Shown piece by piece: positions 5,135 through 34,838 of a stretch of DNA of 34,838 nt. Below the pieces are notes generated by a model that was not told the origin of the DNA, searched no databases, and saw only the letters and a program-made list of their open reading frames with translations. Origin of the DNA: Planctomycetaceae bacterium (GTDB lineage: Bacteria; Planctomycetota; Planctomycetia; Pirellulales; UBA1268); assembly GCA_005791575.1 (NCBI GenBank), contig SXWA01000188.1, forward strand, positions 1 through 34,838. The letters are read 5' to 3'. Position numbers and translations under genes: made by a program. The stretch's first letter is position 1; each line of letters begins with the position of its first letter.

Positions 5135-6859
5135 TCAGGTGGAGGAATCGTCGCGGTAGCGGCGCGAACCGCCGATCGTGGCAGTCAGCCCGACAGCCAT
5201 CACGGCCACGAGGGCGACGCTCAGCCAGGCCACCGGGTCGCCATCGACGAACAGCGCCTTGGTGTACGGGCTGCCGCGCGAAGCGCCGCCGGCGGGATCC
5301 CAACCGAACACGTTCCGGGCGACCCAGAGGCCGAAAATCGTGATCAGGAACGCCGGGCAGACGTAGCGGAACACCGGCTTGAACCAGCCCGGCAGCTGCA
5401 GGGCCGCCCCGGTGTGCAGCTCCCTCCAACCGCGCTCCATGCCGAAAAACCAGCCGAAGAGGATGATCTGGACGGTCGCCAGCACGAAAATCAGGAACGT
5501 CCCCACCCAGAAATCGAGGGTATCGAGGGCCTTGAGGTCCTTGCTGAACCAGGCGACGAAGCCGGTTCCCAGCGCGGTCAGCGTGCCGAGGAGGCCAACC
5601 GAGCCCTTGCGGCTGATCCCCAGTGACTCCTCGAGCAGGGCAATCCCCGGCTGGAGCATCGACAGCGAACTGGTGATCGCGGCGATGAACAGCACGAAGA
5701 AGAAGATCGCCCCGAACAGGCTCCCGGCCGGCATCGAGCTGAAGACCAGCGGCAGCACGTTGAAGCCCAGGCCGAATGTCCCCGCGCCGGCCACCCCGGC
5801 CACCCCGAGGAAGGCGACGGCCGCGGGGAACGTGATCAGCCCGCCGAGGGCGACCTCGCAGAACTCGTTGGTGGCACTGGCGGTGAGCCCCGAGAGCACG
5901 AGATCGTCGCGCGGGCCCATGTAGCTGGCGTAGACGAGGATCACGCCGAAGCCGACCGACAACGAGAAGAAGATCTGTCCCGCGGCCGCGAGCCAGAGGT
6001 TCGGGTCGGCGAGTTGCGCGAGCACGGTCCGCTCGACCACGGTCGCCCCCGGCGTCTGCGCCGCGAGTGCCGTGGCCCGCTCCCGCTGCCGCGTGCGATC
6101 GGCGTCGACCACCTCCGCGAGCACGGCACCGTCGGCCCCGACCACGACGGTCTTGCCCGGATTCCACATGGAGCCGAGCCCCGTCCAGACGTTGCGATCG
6201 GGCTGGGCCGGATCGGGTGTGCCGAGGGTGAGCACCCGGGCGAGCACGAACACGCAGAGGACGATCAGCACCGGCATGCCCACGCGGCAGGCCAATTCGA
6301 TCCCCTTGGAGATCCCGCGGTAGATGAGGACGAGGTTGAGGAGGAACACGACCACCAGCCAGGGCAGCACGGTGTCGAGGCTCGGCCGCAGCGCGGCGCC
6401 GTCGGCCGCGGCGCCGACGAACGAGGTGAAGTATTCCTGCGAGTCGGACACGTCGGCGAAGCGCAGCGACGGATCGACGATCGCCCGGAGAAAACGCACG
6501 GTGTAACCGAGTGTCCACGCCTCGATGACCACGTAATACATGAAGATCACCAGCGGGATCATCGCCCCGAGGACACCGAAGTACTTGCTCGCCCGCCAGG
6601 GGACGAGGCAGTGGAAGGCGCCGGCGGCCGAGTTGTAGCCCCGCTGCCCCGCGTAGCGCCCCATCGCCCACTCGGCCCAGCCGATCGGCAGGCCGATGAT
6701 CAAAAACGAGATGGCGTACGCGATCATGAACGCGCCGCCACCGAACTGGGCCACCTGGCCGGGGAAGCGGATGAAGTTGCCGAGCCCGACGGCGCTCCCC
6801 GCGACGGCGAGGATGACGCCGATCCGGGAACCCCAGGTGTCGCGGGTGCTGCCTTCCAT
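5135..6859 (-). CDS. Sodium-dependent transporter, NSS/SNF family
   Basis: 574 aa. The inner-membrane LeuT-fold symporter family couples sodium entry to uptake of amino acids or related amines. The TM1 signature GSAVGLGNFIRFP (residues 21-33), with its unwound helix at the substrate/Na+ site, is clear. About 11-12 hydrophobic helices follow, including the TM6 region AAAGQIFFSLSVGFGVILVYASYM (291-314) and TM8 with SSLSMLQPG. Between TM5 and TM6 an insert of about 47 residues (about 235-281) separates GSMWNP from LADPNLWL, which are usually near neighbours; it has charged, beta-like sequence and should lie outside the membrane. Substrate cannot be assigned. The ATG at 6859 puts the TM1 motif at the usual distance from the N-terminus. 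Confidence 0.95.
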   Translation of the reverse strand: MEGSTRDTWGSRIGVILAVAGSAVGLGNFIRFPGQVAQFGGGAFMIAYAISFLIIGLPIGWAEWAMGRYAGQRGYNSAAGAFHCLVPWRASKYFGVLGAMIPLVIFMYYVVIEAWTLGYTVRFLRAIVDPSLRFADVSDSQEYFTSFVGAAADGAALRPSLDTVLPWLVVVFLLNLVLIYRGISKGIELACRVGMPVLIVLCVFVLARVLTLGTPDPAQPDRNVWTGLGSMWNPGKTVVVGADGAVLAEVVDADRTRQRERATALAAQTPGATVVERTVLAQLADPNLWLAAAGQIFFSLSVGFGVILVYASYMGPRDDLVLSGLTASATNEFCEVALGGLITFPAAVAFLGVAGVAGAGTFGLGFNVLPLVFSSMPAGSLFGAIFFFVLFIAAITSSLSMLQPGIALLEESLGISRKGSVGLLGTLTALGTGFVAWFSKDLKALDTLDFWVGTFLIFVLATVQIILFGWFFGMERGWRELHTGAALQLPGWFKPVFRYVCPAFLITIFGLWVARNVFGWDPAGGASRGSPYTKALFVDGDPVAWLSVALVAVMAVGLTATIGGSRRYRDDSST

Positions 6860-6921
6860 GGAAGCGGATCGTACTCCGCACGGCCGGCCGGGGGAAACCG
6901 GGCGCGTCGCGGTGCGGTGGC

Positions 6922-27519: not shown

Positions 27520-28005
27520 GTGACCTTGATCATCGACGGCTACAACCTGCTCCATGCCTCCGGGGTGTTCGGCGAGGAGCGCGGTCCGCGCGGCTTCGAG
27601 CAGTCGCGGTTGGCGCTGCTCGACCTGCTCGTGGACCTGCTCGGCCCGGAGGCGGCCGACTGCATCGTCGTCTTCGACGCGGCGCGGGCCCCCGACGGAC
27701 TTCCCGGCCGCTTCCTCCACGGCGGCATCCGTGTCTGGTTCGCCCGCGAGTATCCCGATGCCGATTCGCTCATCGAGGAACTGGTCGCCGACGACGACGC
27801 ACCGGGCAGCCTGGTGGTGGTGTCGGGGGACCGGCGTCTGCAGGCGGCCACGCGGCGACGGCGGGCGACCGCGATCGGTGCCGACGAATGGCTTGCCGAG
27901 CGGCGCGCCCGGCACCGCGCGGCCCGCCGGCCGGGTGAGATGAAGCCACCGCCGCCCGACCCGTCGGCAGTGGACGCCTGGAAACGGTACTTCGGCCTCG
28001 ACTGA
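27520..28005 (+). CDS. NYN-domain nuclease, YacP/Rae1-like
   Basis: 161 aa, starting with GTG behind an ideal AAGGAGG six bases upstream. The PIN-like NYN fold is visible: LIIDGYNLLHA at the N-terminus (first catalytic Asp), CIVVFDAARAPDGLPG, IRVWFAREYPDADSLIEELV (acidic residues of the metal site) and LVVVSGDRRLQAATRRR. The B. subtilis relative Rae1 (YacP) is a ribosome-associated endoribonuclease that cleaves mRNA in the A site; the same role here is inference. A basic, proline-rich tail ends in WKRYFGLD, a terminal motif I associate with planctomycete members. It may be transcribed with pyrBC. Confidence 0.9.
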   Translation: MTLIIDGYNLLHASGVFGEERGPRGFEQSRLALLDLLVDLLGPEAADCIVVFDAARAPDGLPGRFLHGGIRVWFAREYPDADSLIEELVADDDAPGSLVVVSGDRRLQAATRRRRATAIGADEWLAERRARHRAARRPGEMKPPPPDPSAVDAWKRYFGLD

Positions 28006-28013
28006 ACAGCGGC

Positions 28014-28103
28014 GGCCGTCTGGCGGCCCAAGCTGCCGGCCGTCTGGCGGCCCAAGCTGCCGGCCGTCTGTCGGCCCAAGCTGCCGGCCGTCAGTCGGCC
28101 CAG
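28014..28103. repeat. 24-bp tandem repeat, about 3.7 copies, between convergent genes
   Basis: Unit GGCCGTCTGGCGGCCCAAGC plus TGCC, at 28014-28037, 28038-28061, 28062-28085 and a partial copy from 28086 that runs into the last codons of the sigma-54 activator gene. Each unit contains GGCCG-TCTGG-CGGCC, a 5-bp hairpin. Since 24 is a multiple of three, the repeat keeps the activator's reading frame on the minus strand. It fills the space between the convergent NYN and activator genes and may end transcription from both sides. Confidence 0.9.
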
Positions 28104-30034
28104 CGCGCGAGTTTGCGATCGAGTGTCGATCGCTCGATACCGAGGATCGCCGCCGCCTTGGTCTTGTTGCCAGCAGTGGCGGTGAGCGTGGCCATGACAT
28201 GCCGCCGCTCGACCTCCTCGAGCGTCGCCGGCACGTACCTCGGGCCAGAGGCGATCCGCCCGGTGTCGCCACTGGAGCCGAGGTCGCTGAAGCCCAGTTC
28301 ATGGACGTCGACCGAGCCGCCCGAGGAGAGAACGACCGCCCGCTCGACGCAGTTGCGCAGCTCGCGGATGGTGCCCGGCCAGTGGTGCCGGCGCATCGCC
28401 TCGAGGGCCGCGGGGGTGAAGTCCCGGACCGGCTGGCCCGTCTCCGCGGCGAAGCGCTCGAGAAAATGACGGGCCAGCGGCTCGATGTCCTCGACGCGCT
28501 GCCGCAGCGGCGGCACGAGGATCTCCACCACCTTGAGGCGAAAGTAGAGGTCACGGCGGAACTCCCCCGACTCGACCGCCTTTTCGAGGTTGCGGTTGGT
28601 CGCGGCCACGACGCGCACATCGACCTGCACGCGGGTGTGGCCGCCGACGCGCTCGTAGGGATGGCCCTCGAGCACGCGGAGGAACTTCGCCTGGATGGCC
28701 GGGCTCATCTCGCCGATTTCGTCGAGCATGATGGTGCCGCGGTGGGCCTGCTCGAACTTGCCCACCTTGCGCTCGGTGGCACCGGTGAACGCCCCCTTTT
28801 CGTGCCCGAAGAGCTCGCTCTCGAGCAGCGTCTCGGAGAGGGCGGCGCAGTTGAGGCAGACGAACGGTCCGGACCGACGGTCGCTCGCCTCGTGGATCGC
28901 CCGGGCGACCAGCTCCTTGCCGGCGCCGCTCTCGCCGCGCACCAGCACGGTGGCCTTGGTGCCGGCCACGCGGCCGATCTGCCCGACGATCGTGCCCAGG
29001 GCACGGCTCACCCCGACCATCCGCGATTCCTCGCGGAGCCGGGCCTTGAGCCGGGCGTTCTCGTCGGCGGTGGTCGCGAGCCGCACCGACAGCGCCTCAC
29101 GGGCCTGGAGATTGGCGACCGCCATCCCCAGGGCATTGCAGACGGCGAGCAGAAACTCGAGATCGTCGGGCGTGCCCTCGCGTTCACCCGCCCTCTTCTC
29201 GAGGTGCATCACCCCGACCGTGCGGCCATCGGCGCGGATCGGCGCCGACATGCTCGACACCGTCCCGGGGCGCTGGGTCGACTCCCGGGCGACGATCGCC
29301 TCGTCCATCCGCAGCACGGCCGCCGCGGCAGCCCGGGGGATCTCCGCGGCGGGCCACTCCCCCGGTGACGCGGCGAGCGGCTCGAGGGTTGGCGCCCCCT
29401 TGCCGGCCGCCGCCAGCGCCCCCACCGCATCGGGCAGGAGGACGATGCCGCGGGTGGTGCCGCACCCCTCGAGCGCCGTGGCGAGGGCGAGCCCGGCGAG
29501 GGTGCGCGTGTCGCCGGCCTGACCGAGGGCGAAGGCCAACCGGCAGAGTTCGGCCGCGGCCCGCCCCACCCTCGGCGCGGTCTCCGCCGAATCCCTGATG
29601 ACGTCGAGGAGCCGCGTCTCGGTCCGTCGGTGGGTGATCGAGGCGTGCCACTGCTGCAGCACCTCGGGCAGGTGGTCGGTCGACATGCCGCTCCCGAGGG
29701 CGACACTTCCCTCCGCGGCTTCGGTCGGCGGGTTGCCGAGACCGAAAGTGATCTCGGTCTTGCCGATCCGGATCACGTCGCCGGCGGCGAGCGGCCGCAT
29801 GCCCTTGATCGGCTCGCCACCGACACGCGTCCCGTTGCGGCTGTCGAGGTCGCGGACCCGCCACTGGCCGTCGGCAGCGAACACCTCGGCATGGCAACGG
29901 CTGGCACGCTCGTCGCGGACGACGATCGAGTTGGTCGAGGCGCGGCCGAGGGTCACCTTCTGGCCGACGGTGAGGGGGATCGCCGTCGGCCCCGCCTCTG
30001 GATCGTGGAGCAGGAGGTAGGCGGTGGTGGCCAT
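28091..30034 (-). CDS. Sigma-54-dependent transcriptional activator with FHA and GAF domains
   Basis: 647 aa. An FHA domain (about 5-98: [31 protein letters not shown]) should bind phosphothreonine peptides, linking activity to Ser/Thr kinase signalling. A GAF-like domain follows (about 140-310), then a short coiled linker. The AAA+ domain has Walker A GESGAGKE (367-374), the sigma-54 contact loop GAFTGA (414-419), Walker [11 protein letters not shown] (434-443) and RRDLYFRL with the arginine finger (493-500). A Fis-type helix-turn-helix ends the protein (about 605-644, [20 protein letters not shown]). All residues needed to activate sigma-54 polymerase look intact. The ATG at 30034 gives the FHA start; longer frames upstream lack domain sequence. 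The 3' end lies in a 24-bp tandem repeat. Target genes unknown; the divergent DUF1598 gene is a neighbour. Confidence 0.95.
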
Positions 30035-30149
30035 GACGGACGTCGGACCGGGGCGGGCCGCGGACGATTCCCGCGGCGCTTTTGCATGATGCGATACCGC
30101 GCTGGCTTTGGCGAGGGGCGAACCGGGGTCGACCGGGAAAGCGCCCGCT

Positions 30150-30206
30150 CCCCGGGCAAACAGGGGTTTTTCGGCCAGGAATCGGGTTTGCCCCGGGCAA
30201 CAGGGG
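30150..30206. promoter_or_regulatory. Pair of 16-17 bp direct repeats in the divergent regulator/DUF1598 region
   Basis: CCCCGGGCAAACAGGGG (30150-30166) recurs as CCCCGGGCAACAGGGG (30191-30206), one base shorter, with 41 bases between the starts, close to four helical turns. Each copy has CCCC and GGGG arms, so each is also a weak inverted repeat. The pair lies about 115-170 bases upstream of the activator ATG and 65-120 bases upstream of the DUF1598 ATG, where tandem activator sites would be expected. No sigma-54 promoter was found beside them. Confidence 0.45.
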
Positions 30207-30230
30207 AAGACTAGCATGTCGCACCGTCAT

Positions 30231-30247
30231 GGGGGCCGGATGCCCCC
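30231..30247 (+). promoter_or_regulatory. Hairpin in the leader of the DUF1598 gene
   Basis: GGGGGC (30231-30236), a five-base loop CGGAT and GCCCCC (30242-30247) form a perfect 6-bp GC stem that ends 22 bases before ATG 30270. The ribosome site CCGGAGG lies just downstream and is not within the stem. It may be incidental in such GC-rich DNA. Confidence 0.35.
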
Positions 30248-30269
30248 TTCCGTCAGCCGGAGGCTGTCC

Positions 30270-31649
30270 ATGAAACGCCTGCCCGCCACCCGCCCGTTCC
30301 CCTCCGTCCTCGTGATGCGGCCGGTGATGGTCCTCGCCGTGCTGCTGCTGGCCCCGCTGGCGCCGGCCCACGCTCAATTCGGCTTCGGCCAGGCGGTGGG
30401 CGGTATCTCGATCGACGCCGCCGGGATCGTCCGCAACCTCGAGCCCGGGGCGGTCGAATCACTCGCCAAGCAGCGGCGTGAGGCGCTGGCGAAGACCGGC
30501 GGCCAGACCGGGGAAGCGAGCACGCTGCGCAAGGTGTCGCTGGGCCGCGTCGCGGCGGCGCTGGCCGCGGCCGCGAAGGGCGAGGCACCGCTACCGGCGG
30601 AGGTGCTGTTCCTCGGCGGACTGGAACGGATCACCCACGTATTCGTCGATCCCGAGGGCCGAGACATCATCCTCGCCGGGCCGGCCGACGCGATGGCCGT
30701 CGACGCTGCCGGCAACGTGGTCGCCGCCCGCAGCGGCAGGCCGCTGTTGCAGCTCGAGGATCTGATCGTCGCGATGCGGGCAATCGACCGGGCACGGGAC
30801 GGCGGGATGCGCTGCTCCATCGATCCCACACCCGAAGGTGTGGCGCGGGTCCAGCAGTTCCTCAAGACGCAAGTCGCGATCGGTGATCCCGACGCCACAC
30901 TTCGCCGGATGGAGGATCTGCTCGGGCCGCAGCAGGTGTCGGTCGGGGGGGTGCCCGCCGACAGCCGTTTCGCCCGTGTGCTCGTCGCCGCCGACTACCG
31001 CCTCAAGCGACTGGGCATGGGCCTCGAGCCGTCCGGCGTGACTGGCCTCCCCAGCTATGTGTCGATGCTGCCCGCCAGCGCCCCCGCCGCCGCGACCATG
31101 CCGCGCTTCTGGCTGGAGGCTTCGTACGATCCGATCGCCCGTGATGCCGACGAACTGGCTTGGAGGATCACCGGCCGGCGGATGACTTGCCTGACGGAGA
31201 GCGACCTCTTCGGCCGCGACGGCGCCCGTCGTGGTGCCGGCGGTGCCGACCCGACCGCCACGCGCTGGTGCGAGATGTTCTCGCGGCACTACGACGACCT
31301 CGCCGCCAAGCAGCCCGTGTTCGCCGAACTGGTCAATTGCGTCGATCTGGCGGTGGTCGCCGCGCTGATCCACGGTCGCCAACTCGACCGCCGCGCCAAC
31401 CTCGACCTCGCCCTGCTGCTCGATCCGGCTGCCGTGCGGGTGCCGAGCTACGATGCCCCCGCGACGGTCCCCACGGTGGCCAGCGGGATGAAGCGCGGCA
31501 ATCGCTGGGTGGTGACCGCCTCCGGCGGCGTGCAGTTTCAGCCGTGGCAGTTCGCCTCCGCCGAGGGCACGACGACCGCCGACCTGGAAACCTCCCGCGG
31601 TGAGGCGCTGGCCGCCCGCCCCGGTGCCGATCGCTGCTGGTGGGACTGA
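30270..31649 (+). CDS. DUF1598-domain secreted protein
   Basis: 459 aa. A signal peptide (MRPVMVLAVLLLAPLAPAHA core) is followed by QFGFGQAVGGISIDAAGIV and a long single domain with LFLGGLERITHVFVDPEGRDIILAGPAD, MRCSIDPTPEG, ADYRLKRLGMGLEPSGV, ARDADELAWRITGRRM and YDDLAAKQPVFAELVNCVDLAVVAALI. I recognise this as the DUF1598 family, found almost only in Planctomycetes and of unknown function; the protein should be exported. ATG 30270 has GGAGG six bases upstream, the best of three in-frame ATGs. Its stop and the stop of the convergent kinase-fold gene both lie in a perfect palindrome (31643-31664). It is divergent from the sigma-54 activator gene and shares its regulatory region. Confidence 0.88.
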   Translation: MKRLPATRPFPSVLVMRPVMVLAVLLLAPLAPAHAQFGFGQAVGGISIDAAGIVRNLEPGAVESLAKQRREALAKTGGQTGEASTLRKVSLGRVAAALAAAAKGEAPLPAEVLFLGGLERITHVFVDPEGRDIILAGPADAMAVDAAGNVVAARSGRPLLQLEDLIVAMRAIDRARDGGMRCSIDPTPEGVARVQQFLKTQVAIGDPDATLRRMEDLLGPQQVSVGGVPADSRFARVLVAADYRLKRLGMGLEPSGVTGLPSYVSMLPASAPAAATMPRFWLEASYDPIARDADELAWRITGRRMTCLTESDLFGRDGARRGAGGADPTATRWCEMFSRHYDDLAAKQPVFAELVNCVDLAVVAALIHGRQLDRRANLDLALLLDPAAVRVPSYDAPATVPTVASGMKRGNRWVVTASGGVQFQPWQFASAEGTTTADLETSRGEALAARPGADRCWWD

Positions 31650-31664
31650 CCGGCCGGTCAGTCC
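31643..31664. repeat. Perfect 22-bp palindrome containing both stop codons of convergent genes
   Basis: The half-site GGACTGACCGG (31643-31653) is followed by its exact reverse complement (31654-31664). The DUF1598 stop TGA (31647-31649) and the stop of the opposite-strand gene (31658-31660) occupy symmetric positions. As RNA it forms a 9-bp stem with a GGCC loop on either strand. No U-tract follows, so it could be a bidirectional terminator, a protein site, or the result of the two 3' ends converging. Confidence 0.8.
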
Positions 31665-32284
31665 GCGGCACCGTCGCTCTGGTCTCCGCCGCCGTCAGCG
31701 GCAGGACACACCCAGCCGATCCACGGCAGCCGGGCAGCGGCCCGTGGAAACCTGGCATCCACCCAGCCGAGCCGCGACACCTCGGCGAGGTCGGTCGCCG
31801 GCGGGGGCACGCTCTTGACCAGGAGCAGCGGCCTGCCGGCAGCCGTGGCGACGGCCGCGGCGATCGAATCACTGGTCACGTCCCAGCCGGCGGGAAGGGA
31901 CCCGATCCGGCACGCGGCGAGGCAGCCCGCGGCGTCGAGGATCCCGCCGCCGGCCGCTGAGCTGACGATCTCCAGGCCGAGTTCTGCGGCCACCAGCCGG
32001 GCTGTGGCGGCCATGAGCTCGATCGCCACCCCGTGGACGAGCGCCGCGTCGAGCCCACCGGCGGCGTCGATGGCACGCAGTCCATCGACGATCGCCCCAC
32101 CGCCGACGACCAGCAGGGGAGGCGCGGGTGCCGCGAGGGCCCGATGGAGTCGGCGGAGGTGCGGCGGCCATCCGGGCCGGGAGAGCAGGCTGCCGCCGCA
32201 CTTGAGGACGAGGGGACCGGGTGGCTCGATGCTGCCGCCGCCGGCACCGAGCCGTCCGCCCGTCCAATCCGGCGGCAGGATCAT
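31658..32284 (-). CDS. Amino-acid-kinase-fold protein, MfnE-like
   Basis: 208 aa. Amino acid kinase fold: LVLKCGGSLLS at the N-terminus (phosphate-binding Lys and Gly-Gly), LLVVGGGAIVDGLRAID, ALVHGVAIELMAAT, and WDVTSDSIAAAVATAAG with PLLLVKSVPPP at the nucleotide site. In archaea MfnE of this superfamily phosphorylates 5-(aminomethyl)furan-3-methanol phosphate to the diphosphate used in methanofuran synthesis. Assignment to MfnE is inferred mainly from its place directly after MfnF- and MfnD-like genes; the fold alone could also be an uridylate or glutamate kinase. The start ATG overlaps the upstream stop by four bases (ATGA, 32281-32284), so it is translationally coupled. Confidence 0.8.
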   Translation of the reverse strand: MILPPDWTGGRLGAGGGSIEPPGPLVLKCGGSLLSRPGWPPHLRRLHRALAAPAPPLLVVGGGAIVDGLRAIDAAGGLDAALVHGVAIELMAATARLVAAELGLEIVSSAAGGGILDAAGCLAACRIGSLPAGWDVTSDSIAAAVATAAGRPLLLVKSVPPPATDLAEVSRLGWVDARFPRAAARLPWIGWVCPAADGGGDQSDGAAD

Positions 32285-33318
32285 GGCAGCTCCCCGAGAG
32301 CGACCAGCGCCAGCGCATGGGCCGGCGCCACACGGGCCACCTCCGCTCCCAGGCGGGTGGCGAGCGAAACGGTCGGAGCCTGCCAGCCCATGAGGTCGAG
32401 GGCCCGCCGCGCCAGGCATTCGCCGTGGCCGGAGAGCACCACCGCCGCCGGCGGCCGGCCGAGCGACGTCGCCACGCGTTGCAGGGCGGCGGCCACCAGA
32501 CGGGCCTGCGCGCGAGCGCACCGCTCGGCCAGCAGCGTGGCGTCGGCCGCCGGGAAGGAGTCCGGTTCGACGAGCAGCATCCGCGCCAGGCGCGCCCGGG
32601 CGAACTCCCGGGTGGACGGCCGTCCGTCGGCGGTGTCGGTGTCGTGCGGATCCTCCGCCAACACTCCCAGCCACAGCCAGGCATCGCGGGAATCGGCGAA
32701 GCGCTCGGCGACGATCGGGCGGACGACACCGGCGTGGATGCACCGGCGGAGCAGGGCGGCGACCGGTGTCCGCTCGATGCCGGTGTAGACCAGTTCCCCC
32801 ACGGCGAGCCGGCCGGCATCGTCGGTCGCCGTGGGCACCGGCCGACCGTGATCGAGGGGAACGATGTCGGTGGTGGTCGAACCGACGTCGACAAGGAGCG
32901 CTGGCCAGGCGGGGGCATGGGCTGCCGCCAGTCGGGCGAGGGCCTGCCAGTTGGCGGCCGCCGTCGCGAGCGGTTCCGCCACCGCCACCTCCGGCGGCAC
33001 GAGGGATCCGTCCACCCGGAGGATCCCCACCTCCTCCGCCACGCCACGGGCCGCCTCGACCACGGCAGCCACGATCGTCGCGACACCGTCGCGCCGCGAG
33101 GGGAAGCAGTCGGCGATCTCGCCGGTCATCGTCGCCACGAGCCGTCGCGGACAGCGGGCATCGACGAGCTGCCTGAGCGCCGGGAGCAACGCCGCAGGCT
33201 GCCGCCACAAGGGGAAGGGCGCGGCATGGGTGAAGCCCCGTCCGTCGGCCGCCTTGAGATTGGCGCCACCGATGTCGAGTGCCAACACCGGCGCGGTGAC
33301 GGGGTGGCTGAATGCCAT
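32281..33318 (-). CDS. Hydantoinase/oxoprolinase-fold protein, MfnF-like (H4MPT-linked C1 pathway family)
   Basis: 345 aa. ASKHA-type ATPase fold of the hydantoinase A/oxoprolinase class: first phosphate motif VLALDIGGANLKAADG (N-terminus), second LLVDVGSTTTDIVPLDHG, and VVLSGHGECLARRAL near the C-terminus. It fits the family once named probable H4MPT-linked C1 transfer pathway protein, whose archaeal member MfnF joins the furan diphosphate to glutamyl-tyramine in methanofuran synthesis. Methylotrophic bacteria carry a related gene for methylofuran. A cytosolic soluble enzyme. ATG 33318 starts just before the first motif; ATG 33354 is an upstream alternative overlapping the ligase gene. It lies 19 bases after the ligase gene and overlaps the kinase-fold gene. 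Confidence 0.85.
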   Translation of the reverse strand: MAFSHPVTAPVLALDIGGANLKAADGRGFTHAAPFPLWRQPAALLPALRQLVDARCPRRLVATMTGEIADCFPSRRDGVATIVAAVVEAARGVAEEVGILRVDGSLVPPEVAVAEPLATAAANWQALARLAAAHAPAWPALLVDVGSTTTDIVPLDHGRPVPTATDDAGRLAVGELVYTGIERTPVAALLRRCIHAGVVRPIVAERFADSRDAWLWLGVLAEDPHDTDTADGRPSTREFARARLARMLLVEPDSFPAADATLLAERCARAQARLVAAALQRVATSLGRPPAAVVLSGHGECLARRALDLMGWQAPTVSLATRLGAEVARVAPAHALALVALGELP

Positions 33319-33337
33319 TGCGGGGCCGAGCAGGCCG

Positions 33338-34432
33338 TCAGGCGTGGTGGGCATCGGCGCTCGGATCCTCGGTCGTGCCGATCGCGAACGATCCGTCTCC
33401 ATGGGGCTCACCCGGCCAATCGACCGGTTCTCCGGCGCCGCGCGCCAGGAGCGCCCGCAGCAGACTGCGGCTGCTTTGGGCGGAGAGGCCGACGAACGAG
33501 GTCGTGAGCCGCGGATTGATCTCCAGCACGCGATCGTGCGCCCCATCGTCCCGGCTGCCGAGGATCATGTCGACTCCCACCCAGCCGACCGCCGGGCCCG
33601 TTGCCCACTCGAGGGCCGTGATCGCCCGACGGGCCAGCTGTGTCGCCCGCGCCGCCGCGGCAGCGGGGAGGCCGAGATCGCCCCCGAGGAACCGGGGAGA
33701 ACGGCCGGTGGAGAACCGCTGCCGCACCGGAGGGAGGGGGAACGGGCCCTCCGCACCGCACAGGCACGACACGCCGACCGGAGTGCCGGCCGCATGCGCC
33801 TCGAGCCGACGCGAAAACTCCGCCGGCAGCAGCTCGGCGGGACCGCGGAGCACCGCCAAGCCGTCACCGCCACAGCCGGCCCGGGCCTTGACCACTGCCG
33901 GCAGCGCGAACCCGACCGGCCATTCTTCGCCCGGCTCGAGAAGGCGTCCGGCCGGCACCGGCACCCCAGCGGCCGCCAGGGCGCGGACCGTCGCCTGCTT
34001 GTCACCAGCCACGGCGATGAACCGATCATCCGGCGCCGCCACCCTGCCGCCGGCGGTGCGGACCAGTGCCACCCGGGCGGCGAGGATGCCGTCGGTCTCC
34101 GGGGCGACGACCACCGTCCAGTCGGCGTCCCGGGCGGCGGACCGGAGGGCCTCGGGTTCCGCGCCGGGCGGCACCACGACCACCCGCACCCCGGCCGGCA
34201 CGCCGGCGGCGCCGTAGGCCGGGAGCAGCGGTGACAGCCCTTCGGCCACCAACACGGAGACATCGAGATCGGGAGCCCGCGCCCCGTCGGCCACCAGCGC
34301 TGCCAGCATTGCCCGCCCCTCGGCGACGATCGCCGACTCCGCCGCCGGACCAACGCCGGCAGGGTAAAGGGGAGCGGCGGTGGGCACAACGGTCCCGCCT
34401 GAACAGGACCACTCGTGGAGCACGATCCGCAC
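33338..34432 (-). CDS. ATP-grasp ligase, MfnD-like (tyramine/tyrosine-glutamate ligase type)
   Basis: 364 aa, GTG start. An N-terminal Rossmann-like part (VRIVLHEWSCSGG, then VRVVVVPPGAE and TVVVAPETDGILAARV) leads to an ATP-grasp fold: DKQATVRALAAAGVPVPAGR, the nucleotide-binding LPAVVKARAGCGGDG, and the metal-binding end DRVLEINPRLTTSFVGLS. The EINPRLTTS motif and length fit the ligase that in archaea (MfnD) attaches glutamate to tyramine for methanofuran; related ATP-grasp genes occur in bacterial methylotrophy clusters. The substrate in this organism could be tyrosine rather than tyramine; no tyrosine decarboxylase gene is in the window. It starts 12 bases after the MIP18-like gene and precedes the MfnF-like gene by 19 bases. 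Confidence 0.85.
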   Translation of the reverse strand: MRIVLHEWSCSGGTVVPTAAPLYPAGVGPAAESAIVAEGRAMLAALVADGARAPDLDVSVLVAEGLSPLLPAYGAAGVPAGVRVVVVPPGAEPEALRSAARDADWTVVVAPETDGILAARVALVRTAGGRVAAPDDRFIAVAGDKQATVRALAAAGVPVPAGRLLEPGEEWPVGFALPAVVKARAGCGGDGLAVLRGPAELLPAEFSRRLEAHAAGTPVGVSCLCGAEGPFPLPPVRQRFSTGRSPRFLGGDLGLPAAAAARATQLARRAITALEWATGPAVGWVGVDMILGSRDDGAHDRVLEINPRLTTSFVGLSAQSSRSLLRALLARGAGEPVDWPGEPHGDGSFAIGTTEDPSADAHHA

Positions 34433-34444
34433 GGGAAGGCCGCG

Positions 34445-34837
34445 TCAGAAGATACCGAGCTGGTCGCGCGCCGCGTCGGTCATGCGGTCGGGCGTCCACG
34501 GCGGGTCCATCACGATCCGCACCTCCACGCCACGGACGAGCTCGTGGCAGCCCACCGCGCGCTTCGTGTCGGCGATCAACTGGGGACCGGCCGGGCAGGC
34601 GGGGCTGGTCATCGTCATGTCGATCGACACCCGGCGGCCGGCGGGGTCGTCGGCGGCGGGGTCGATCGTCACCCCGTAGATCAGGCCGAGATCGACGATG
34701 TTGACGAACAGCTCCGGATCCTTCACCTCCCGGAGCATCTCCCGGACGGCATCCTCGGAGAGCCCGTTCGCGGCTGGCAACACCATGCCGGCTGGCGACA
34801 CCATGCCGGCTGGCAACACCATGCCGGCTGGCAACAC
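34445..34837 (-). CDS. MIP18/SufT-like iron-sulfur assembly protein, 5' end uncertain
   Basis: About 113-130 aa. One MIP18 (DUF59) domain: AVREMLREVKDPELFVNIVD, LGLIYGVTIDP, VSIDMTMTSPACPAGPQLI with the reactive Cys region, and VEVRIVMDPPWTPDRMTDAARDQLGIF. Relatives (SufT, PaaD, Cia2) help mature iron-sulfur proteins. The N-terminus is made of an 18-bp tandem repeat coding MVLPAG units that runs off the window, so the start may be any of ATG 34786, 34804 or 34822, or a codon outside; the most compact choice is 34786. It is first in the visible MfnD/F/E-like operon. A direct role in cofactor synthesis is not implied by its family. Confidence 0.85.
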   Translation of the reverse strand: MLPAGMVLPAGMVSPAGMVLPAANGLSEDAVREMLREVKDPELFVNIVDLGLIYGVTIDPAADDPAGRRVSIDMTMTSPACPAGPQLIADTKRAVGCHELVRGVEVRIVMDPPWTPDRMTDAARDQLGIF

Positions 34838-34838
34838 C
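34772..34838. repeat. 18-bp tandem repeat at the 5' end of the MIP18-like gene, about 3.7 copies to the window edge
   Basis: Unit GGCTGGCAACACCATGCC at 34772-34789, 34790-34807 (one change), 34808-34825, and a partial copy to 34838. On the minus strand every full unit carries an ATG-GTG pair in the MIP18-like frame (ATGs at 34786, 34804 and 34822), so the array encodes MVLPAG/MVSPAG units and supplies several possible start codons. The array probably continues beyond the window. Confidence 0.9.

Follow-up and report, generated by a model that had tools for sequence, protein, structure and literature searches.

A predicted methanofuran-type cofactor gene trio behind the SUF operon in a lineage of planctomycetes

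Results

Three overlapping genes follow a SufT-like gene at the end of a planctomycete contig

The window analyzed here is an entire contig of 34,838 bases (SXWA01000188.1); the planctomycete draft assembly to which it belongs totals 3.84 Mb in 274 contigs and is ~75% complete. At its right end, four minus-strand genes run leftwards, a SufT-like gene followed by mfnD-like, mfnF-like, and mfnE-like genes, whose products resemble enzymes that make the coenzyme methanofuran (Table 1). A first-pass annotation of this DNA had described these four genes, and all of them are present on the minus strand, although two of the starts it worked from had to be corrected: the kinase gene begins at 32284, within the open frame 31658-33208, and the true start of the synthase gene lies well within the longer frame listed at 33546, either at 33354, where it overlaps mfnD, or at 33318. 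The SufT-like frame (34837-34445) is open at its 5' end, where the contig ends, and the mfnD-like gene starts with GTG 12 bases after the SufT end. The mfnE-like ATG overlaps the mfnF stop codon as ATGA at 32284. The mfn trio thus spans 34432-31658, with both the ligase/synthase and the synthase/kinase pairs overlapping. Dozens of independent contigs from planctomycetes show the identical order on a single strand, with protein identities of 35-93%, from which we conclude that the three genes are real.

Table 1. Coordinates of the genes and sequence features at the right end of the window.
Feature	Position	Strand	Matches and remarks
mfnD-like ATP-grasp ligase, predicted tyramine/tyrosine--L-glutamate ligase	33338..34432	-	PF02655 58.3 bits; NF040722 MfnD 43 bits
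mfnF-like synthase (hydantoinase/oxoprolinase/ASKHA fold), predicted to couple the furan to glutamyl-tyramine	32281..33354	-	TIGR03123 229-230 bits; NF040623 MfnF
mfnE-like kinase, predicted (5-aminomethylfuran-3-yl)methyl-phosphate kinase	31658..32284	-	NF040622 MfnE; fold and profile match 7qrh
SufT (DUF59/MIP18), C-terminal domain of a predicted Rieske-SufT fusion	34445..34838	-	PF01883 58.9 bits; TIGR03406 99 bits
18-bp tandem repeat	34771..34838		3.8 copies; encodes LPAGMV-type linker
20-bp palindrome GACTGACCGGCCGGTCAGTC	31643..31662		spans both convergent stop codons

The trio encodes divergent relatives of MfnD, MfnF, and MfnE

When the three proteins were compared with profile models, MfnD, MfnF/TIGR03123, and MfnE were the best specific NCBIfam matches, as the first-pass annotation had predicted, but all three scored under the curated cut-offs and are therefore divergent. 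The synthase matched TIGR03123, "probable H4MPT-linked C1 transfer pathway protein" (tetrahydromethanopterin, H4MPT; one-carbon, C1), over its full length with an E-value of 4e-68, and the cut-off of this model was exceeded in seven planctomycete genomes. A profile built from 24 relatives of the synthase aligned end to end with 3c0b/3cet, a conserved archaeal protein (Q6M145), with an E-value of 1e-65. A plasmid search for annotated MfnF neighbors returned partial matches only, which were labelled hydantoinase/oxoprolinase or were unannotated.

The kinase was the weakest of the three by sequence (21.4 bits against NF040622). The same MfnE model was nonetheless matched by all 39 kinase relatives (best E-value 2.9e-14), and the AlphaFold2 model of the kinase (predicted local distance difference test score, pLDDT, 92.4) had an amino-acid kinase fold whose first-ranked match among PDB chains in Foldseek was 7qrh, the crystal structure of MfnE from Methanococcus vannielii (E-value 1.9e-7, TM score 0.61). 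The kinase-family profile likewise placed 7qrh first (E-value 3.7e-16), and the motif LPxxWxVTSDSxAA is common to both proteins; K28, GGS, GGG, and TSDS are conserved in the kinase. With this modelled fold match and shared motif, the MfnE assignment is the best anchored of the three. Since the kinase scores under the equivalog cut-off, we call it MfnE-like rather than a member of the equivalog family.

For the ligase, the best specific NCBIfam match was MfnD (NF040722), which was weak at 43 bits. Among its aligned relatives, MfnD was the top family by count, being matched by 33/33 (best E-value 3.9e-16). The motif EINPRLTTS noted in the first reading of this DNA was confirmed at residues 304-312, with E304, N306, P307, R308, T310, and S312 invariant among the 33 relatives, as are the ATP-grasp residues K145, K182, D288, E304, and N306. 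The ligase thus combines intact ATP-grasp catalytic residues with MfnD as its closest specific family. In its predicted structure (pLDDT 89.7), the top match by both fold and profile was 3df7, a putative ATP-grasp protein from Archaeoglobus fulgidus. Its predicted substrates are glutamate and either tyramine or tyrosine.

Most of the surrounding C1 pathway is encoded in the same genome

We examined the genome by single-family searches. The formyltransferase Ftr/FhcD was found together with FhcA and FhcC (the Fhc search covered these three subunits), as were fae, mfnB, mch, and beta-ribofuranosylaminobenzene 5'-phosphate (beta-RFAP) synthase, the last just above its cut-off. An mtd-type dehydrogenase (methylene-H4MPT dehydrogenase N-domain, Mpt_N) adjoins fae, as does a MyfA-like ATP-grasp protein, and an MptN-like ligase, a relative of MyfB, adjoins mch. 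Fae, Mch, Mtd, Fhc subunits, MfnB, and RFAP synthase, which define an H4MPT/methylofuran C1 pathway, are thus found in one genome, and since these genes are present, the objection that the pathway is absent, which would have told against the first-pass annotation, falls away. On contig C244 (locus L031, 2524-12000), mch, the myfB-like gene, the mtd-type gene, fae, and the myfA-like gene lie with rsgA and hflX interspersed. The fhcA, fhcC, fhcD, mfnB, and RFAP synthase genes are each on contigs other than C244. The pathway genes are thus dispersed rather than clustered in this genome.

The MyfA-like protein bears on the identity of the ligase in the window. In proteobacteria, the methylofuran genes comprise orf22/mfnB, orf21/mfnE, orf9/mfnF, orf1/mfnD, orfY/myfA, and orf5/myfB, with MyfA and MyfB lengthening the glutamate chain (PMC8141765). 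The window's ATP-grasp gene could therefore be read as a ligase of the MyfA (OrfY) type, which adds the second glutamate, rather than as the MfnD that forms the first bond; MyfA and the window ligase are both ATP-grasp_3 proteins partly similar to MfnD (PMC8141765), and a score of 43 bits against MfnD would fit this reading. However, the genome has a distinct MyfA-like protein adjoining fae on C244, which the family profile of the window ligase fails to recover at an E-value of 1e-3, and in another planctomycete family the mfnD adjoining mfnF is clearly MfnD-like (110 bits). We consequently regard a MyfA-type ligase as unlikely and retain the MfnD-like assignment.

MfnF and MfnE co-occur with formyltransferase across planctomycetes

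Among 119 planctomycete genomes, TIGR03123/MfnF was found in nine and formyltransferase in ten, with all nine falling within the ten (hypergeometric 1e-12, shared ancestry ignored). The nine carriers span five families. MfnE was present in 9/9 MfnF-positive genomes and in 0/7 genomes without MfnF. One genome, G079 (89% complete), has formyltransferase without a TIGR03123 or MfnE match, which reflects either missing sequence or an Ftr genome that lacks this cofactor route.

A search of bacterial genomes returned 59 related loci, nearly all titled planctomycetes, in which the block reads sufC, sufB, sufD, Rieske-SufT, mfnD, mfnF, mfnE (families were assigned on L035, the closest relative). In other planctomycete families, mfnD and mfnF are adjacent and mfnE is elsewhere in the genome; in their loci, a search with the mfnE profile gave no match next to mfnF. 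The compact trio is therefore a feature of this lineage.

The SufT-like gene is the predicted tail of a Rieske fusion that closes a SUF operon

The first-pass annotation had called the leading MIP18/SufT-like gene an unexpected companion, but the relatives make it an ordinary one. In 41 of the 42 loci whose SufT reaches its C-terminus, a Rieske CxH...CxxH motif lies upstream in the SufT frame with no stop codon between, the single exception being cut by its own contig end, which makes SufT the C-terminal portion of a fusion protein. The linker of the fusion in planctomycete loci is of low complexity and rich in Pro, Ala, and Thr, and in L035 the fusion gene occupies 6100-6888. Since sufC, sufB, and sufD precede the Rieske-SufT frame in the relatives, the fusion gene is the last of the SUF operon. 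By comparison with them, the SufT in the window would be the C-terminal part of such a fusion, with its Rieske part past the contig end, and the 18-bp repeat that encodes the linker probably broke the assembly there. SufT genes are often co-localized with sufBC (PMC4982691), and DUF59 stands next to sufBC here as well; in contrast with the SufT described there, it is fused behind a Rieske ferredoxin domain via the low-complexity linker. We found no description of a Rieske-SufT fusion in the literature searched.

Among relatives, the SufT-mfnD distance varies from a 4-base overlap to a 404-base gap, so a common transcript is likely in some genomes and not in all; in the window, a common suf/mfn transcript is likely. 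The conservation of the SufT-mfnD-mfnF-mfnE order in dozens of genomes, often with less than 30 bp between SufT and mfnD, might suggest that SufT is functionally coupled to cofactor synthesis, for example by maturing an iron-sulfur (Fe-S) protein of the C1 pathway. We consider such coupling quite improbable, given that the Rieske-fused SufT closes a sufC-sufB-sufD operon that would serve Fe-S proteins generally, that some relatives have as much as 404 bp between SufT and mfnD, and that no SufT match lies beside the mfnD-mfnF pair in other planctomycete families. A role for SufT as a dedicated mfn partner was set aside because relatives carry the SUF operon upstream. The position of the trio behind the SUF operon is better read as an inherited, lineage-specific gene order, which would need no functional link.

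Features flanking the mfn unit

The mfnE-like gene converges with a plus-strand gene at 30108-31649, whose counterpart in L035 (9660-10817, minus strand) encodes a DUF1598 protein (PF07643) and is kept at the same place beside mfnE in ~50 loci. The palindrome over the stop codons of these two genes, GACTGACCGGCCGGTCAGTC at 31643-31662, lacks a T-run and is a possible bidirectional transcription end. A sequence scan around the mfn unit found no canonical T-run terminator and no sigma-70 promoter. Farther left, a 24-bp tandem repeat (28013-28102; 3.8 copies at 96%) lies between an NYN/YacP-domain gene (27520-28005) and a convergent FHA/sigma-54-activator-like gene (28091-30217).

Discussion

Taken together, the family matches, the 7qrh fold, and the remaining pathway in the genome support the proposal of a bacterial methanofuran-type pathway, which was largely right, and we consider it very likely that the trio builds the central part of a methanofuran/methylofuran-type coenzyme. 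The direct observations are the arrangement of the genes, their homology, the catalytic motifs that are conserved, the predicted fold, a gene order kept among relatives, and the remaining pathway in the genome. The mechanism is drawn by analogy with archaea, using what is established for MfnA-F together with the scheme in PMC8141765, and on this basis the substrates, the sequence of reactions, and the product would be as follows. MfnB, encoded elsewhere in the genome, would make the furan phosphate, which a transaminase would aminate to aminomethylfuran-methyl phosphate and the MfnE-like kinase would phosphorylate to the pyrophosphate. The MfnD-like ligase would link glutamate to tyramine or tyrosine via an acyl phosphate, and the MfnF-like enzyme would condense both halves, releasing pyrophosphate. 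Further glutamates may then be added by the MyfA- and MyfB-like ligases encoded on contig C244. The product would carry formyl groups for the formyltransferase/hydrolase complex when formaldehyde is oxidized by the H4MPT-linked route.

Several points weigh against this interpretation. None of the proteins reaches the cut-off of its equivalog model (43 bits against 400 for MfnD, 21.4 against 300 for MfnE, and 140-141 against 520 for NF040623 MfnF), and the synthase falls just under TIGR03123 (229-230.1 bits against 244.1). Substrate changes come easily to ATP-grasp ligases, and the MfnD-like protein is a divergent one. In addition, no MfnC was identified in the genome, and its sole PF00282 decarboxylase resembles diaminobutyrate decarboxylase (140 bits) more closely than MfnA (42 bits, cut-off 299). 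Scores under the cut-offs and generic folds would also fit a trio that serves another small-molecule pathway, such as a peptide or sugar-acid pathway reusing the same folds, but co-occurrence with formyltransferase, the MfnE structure match, and the nearly complete surrounding pathway leave this reading with very little probability.

Within the methanofuran-type reading, we lean modestly toward the tyramine form of the cofactor, because a relative of MfnD is present and most tyrosine-type strains are without MfnD (PMC8141765). The tyrosine producer M. album does have MfnD, however, and the only PF00282 decarboxylase of the genome is not clearly MfnA. Three of the six known tyramine-type strains are likewise without a recognizable MfnA (PMC8141765). 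It is doubtful, in our view, that the divergent MfnD-like ligase takes a different amine or amino acid and so yields a third form of methylofuran, of neither the tyrosine nor the tyramine type.

The trio shares its folds, motifs, and presumed reactions with archaeal MfnD, MfnE, and MfnF of Methanocaldococcus and Methanococcus, from which it differs in its low identity (~20% for MfnE), its scores under the equivalog cut-offs, and the adjacency and overlap of its genes. Relatives of the methylofuran set of methylotrophic proteobacteria are found in this genome, but whereas the proteobacterial genes are grouped with fhcABCD in a C1 cluster of archaeal type, those of this genome are spread over several contigs, with mfnDFE behind the SUF operon. 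H4MPT/methanofuran C1 genes of the same pathway have been reported in the phylum Planctomycetes since 2004 (PMC5020050), and bacterial homologues of MfnB, MfnD, MfnE, and MfnF have been published (PMC8141765), so the presence of these genes in a planctomycete is not new. The finding extends the known planctomycete pathway rather than defining a new system, and is sound but ordinary. In the literature searched, we found no earlier report of the sufCBD-(Rieske-SufT)-mfnD-mfnF-mfnE order and no planctomycete methylofuran structure.

The analysis adds a lineage-specific trio placed after the SUF operon, a fusion of Rieske and SufT domains, and divergent MfnD and MfnE proteins that score far under annotation cut-offs, so automatic annotation with these models would miss mfnD and mfnE in this lineage. 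The trio is a clean, testable three-enzyme core in a lineage distant from both methanogens and proteobacterial methylotrophs, and can help to trace how the pathway evolved and to predict which of tyrosine and tyramine serves as precursor.

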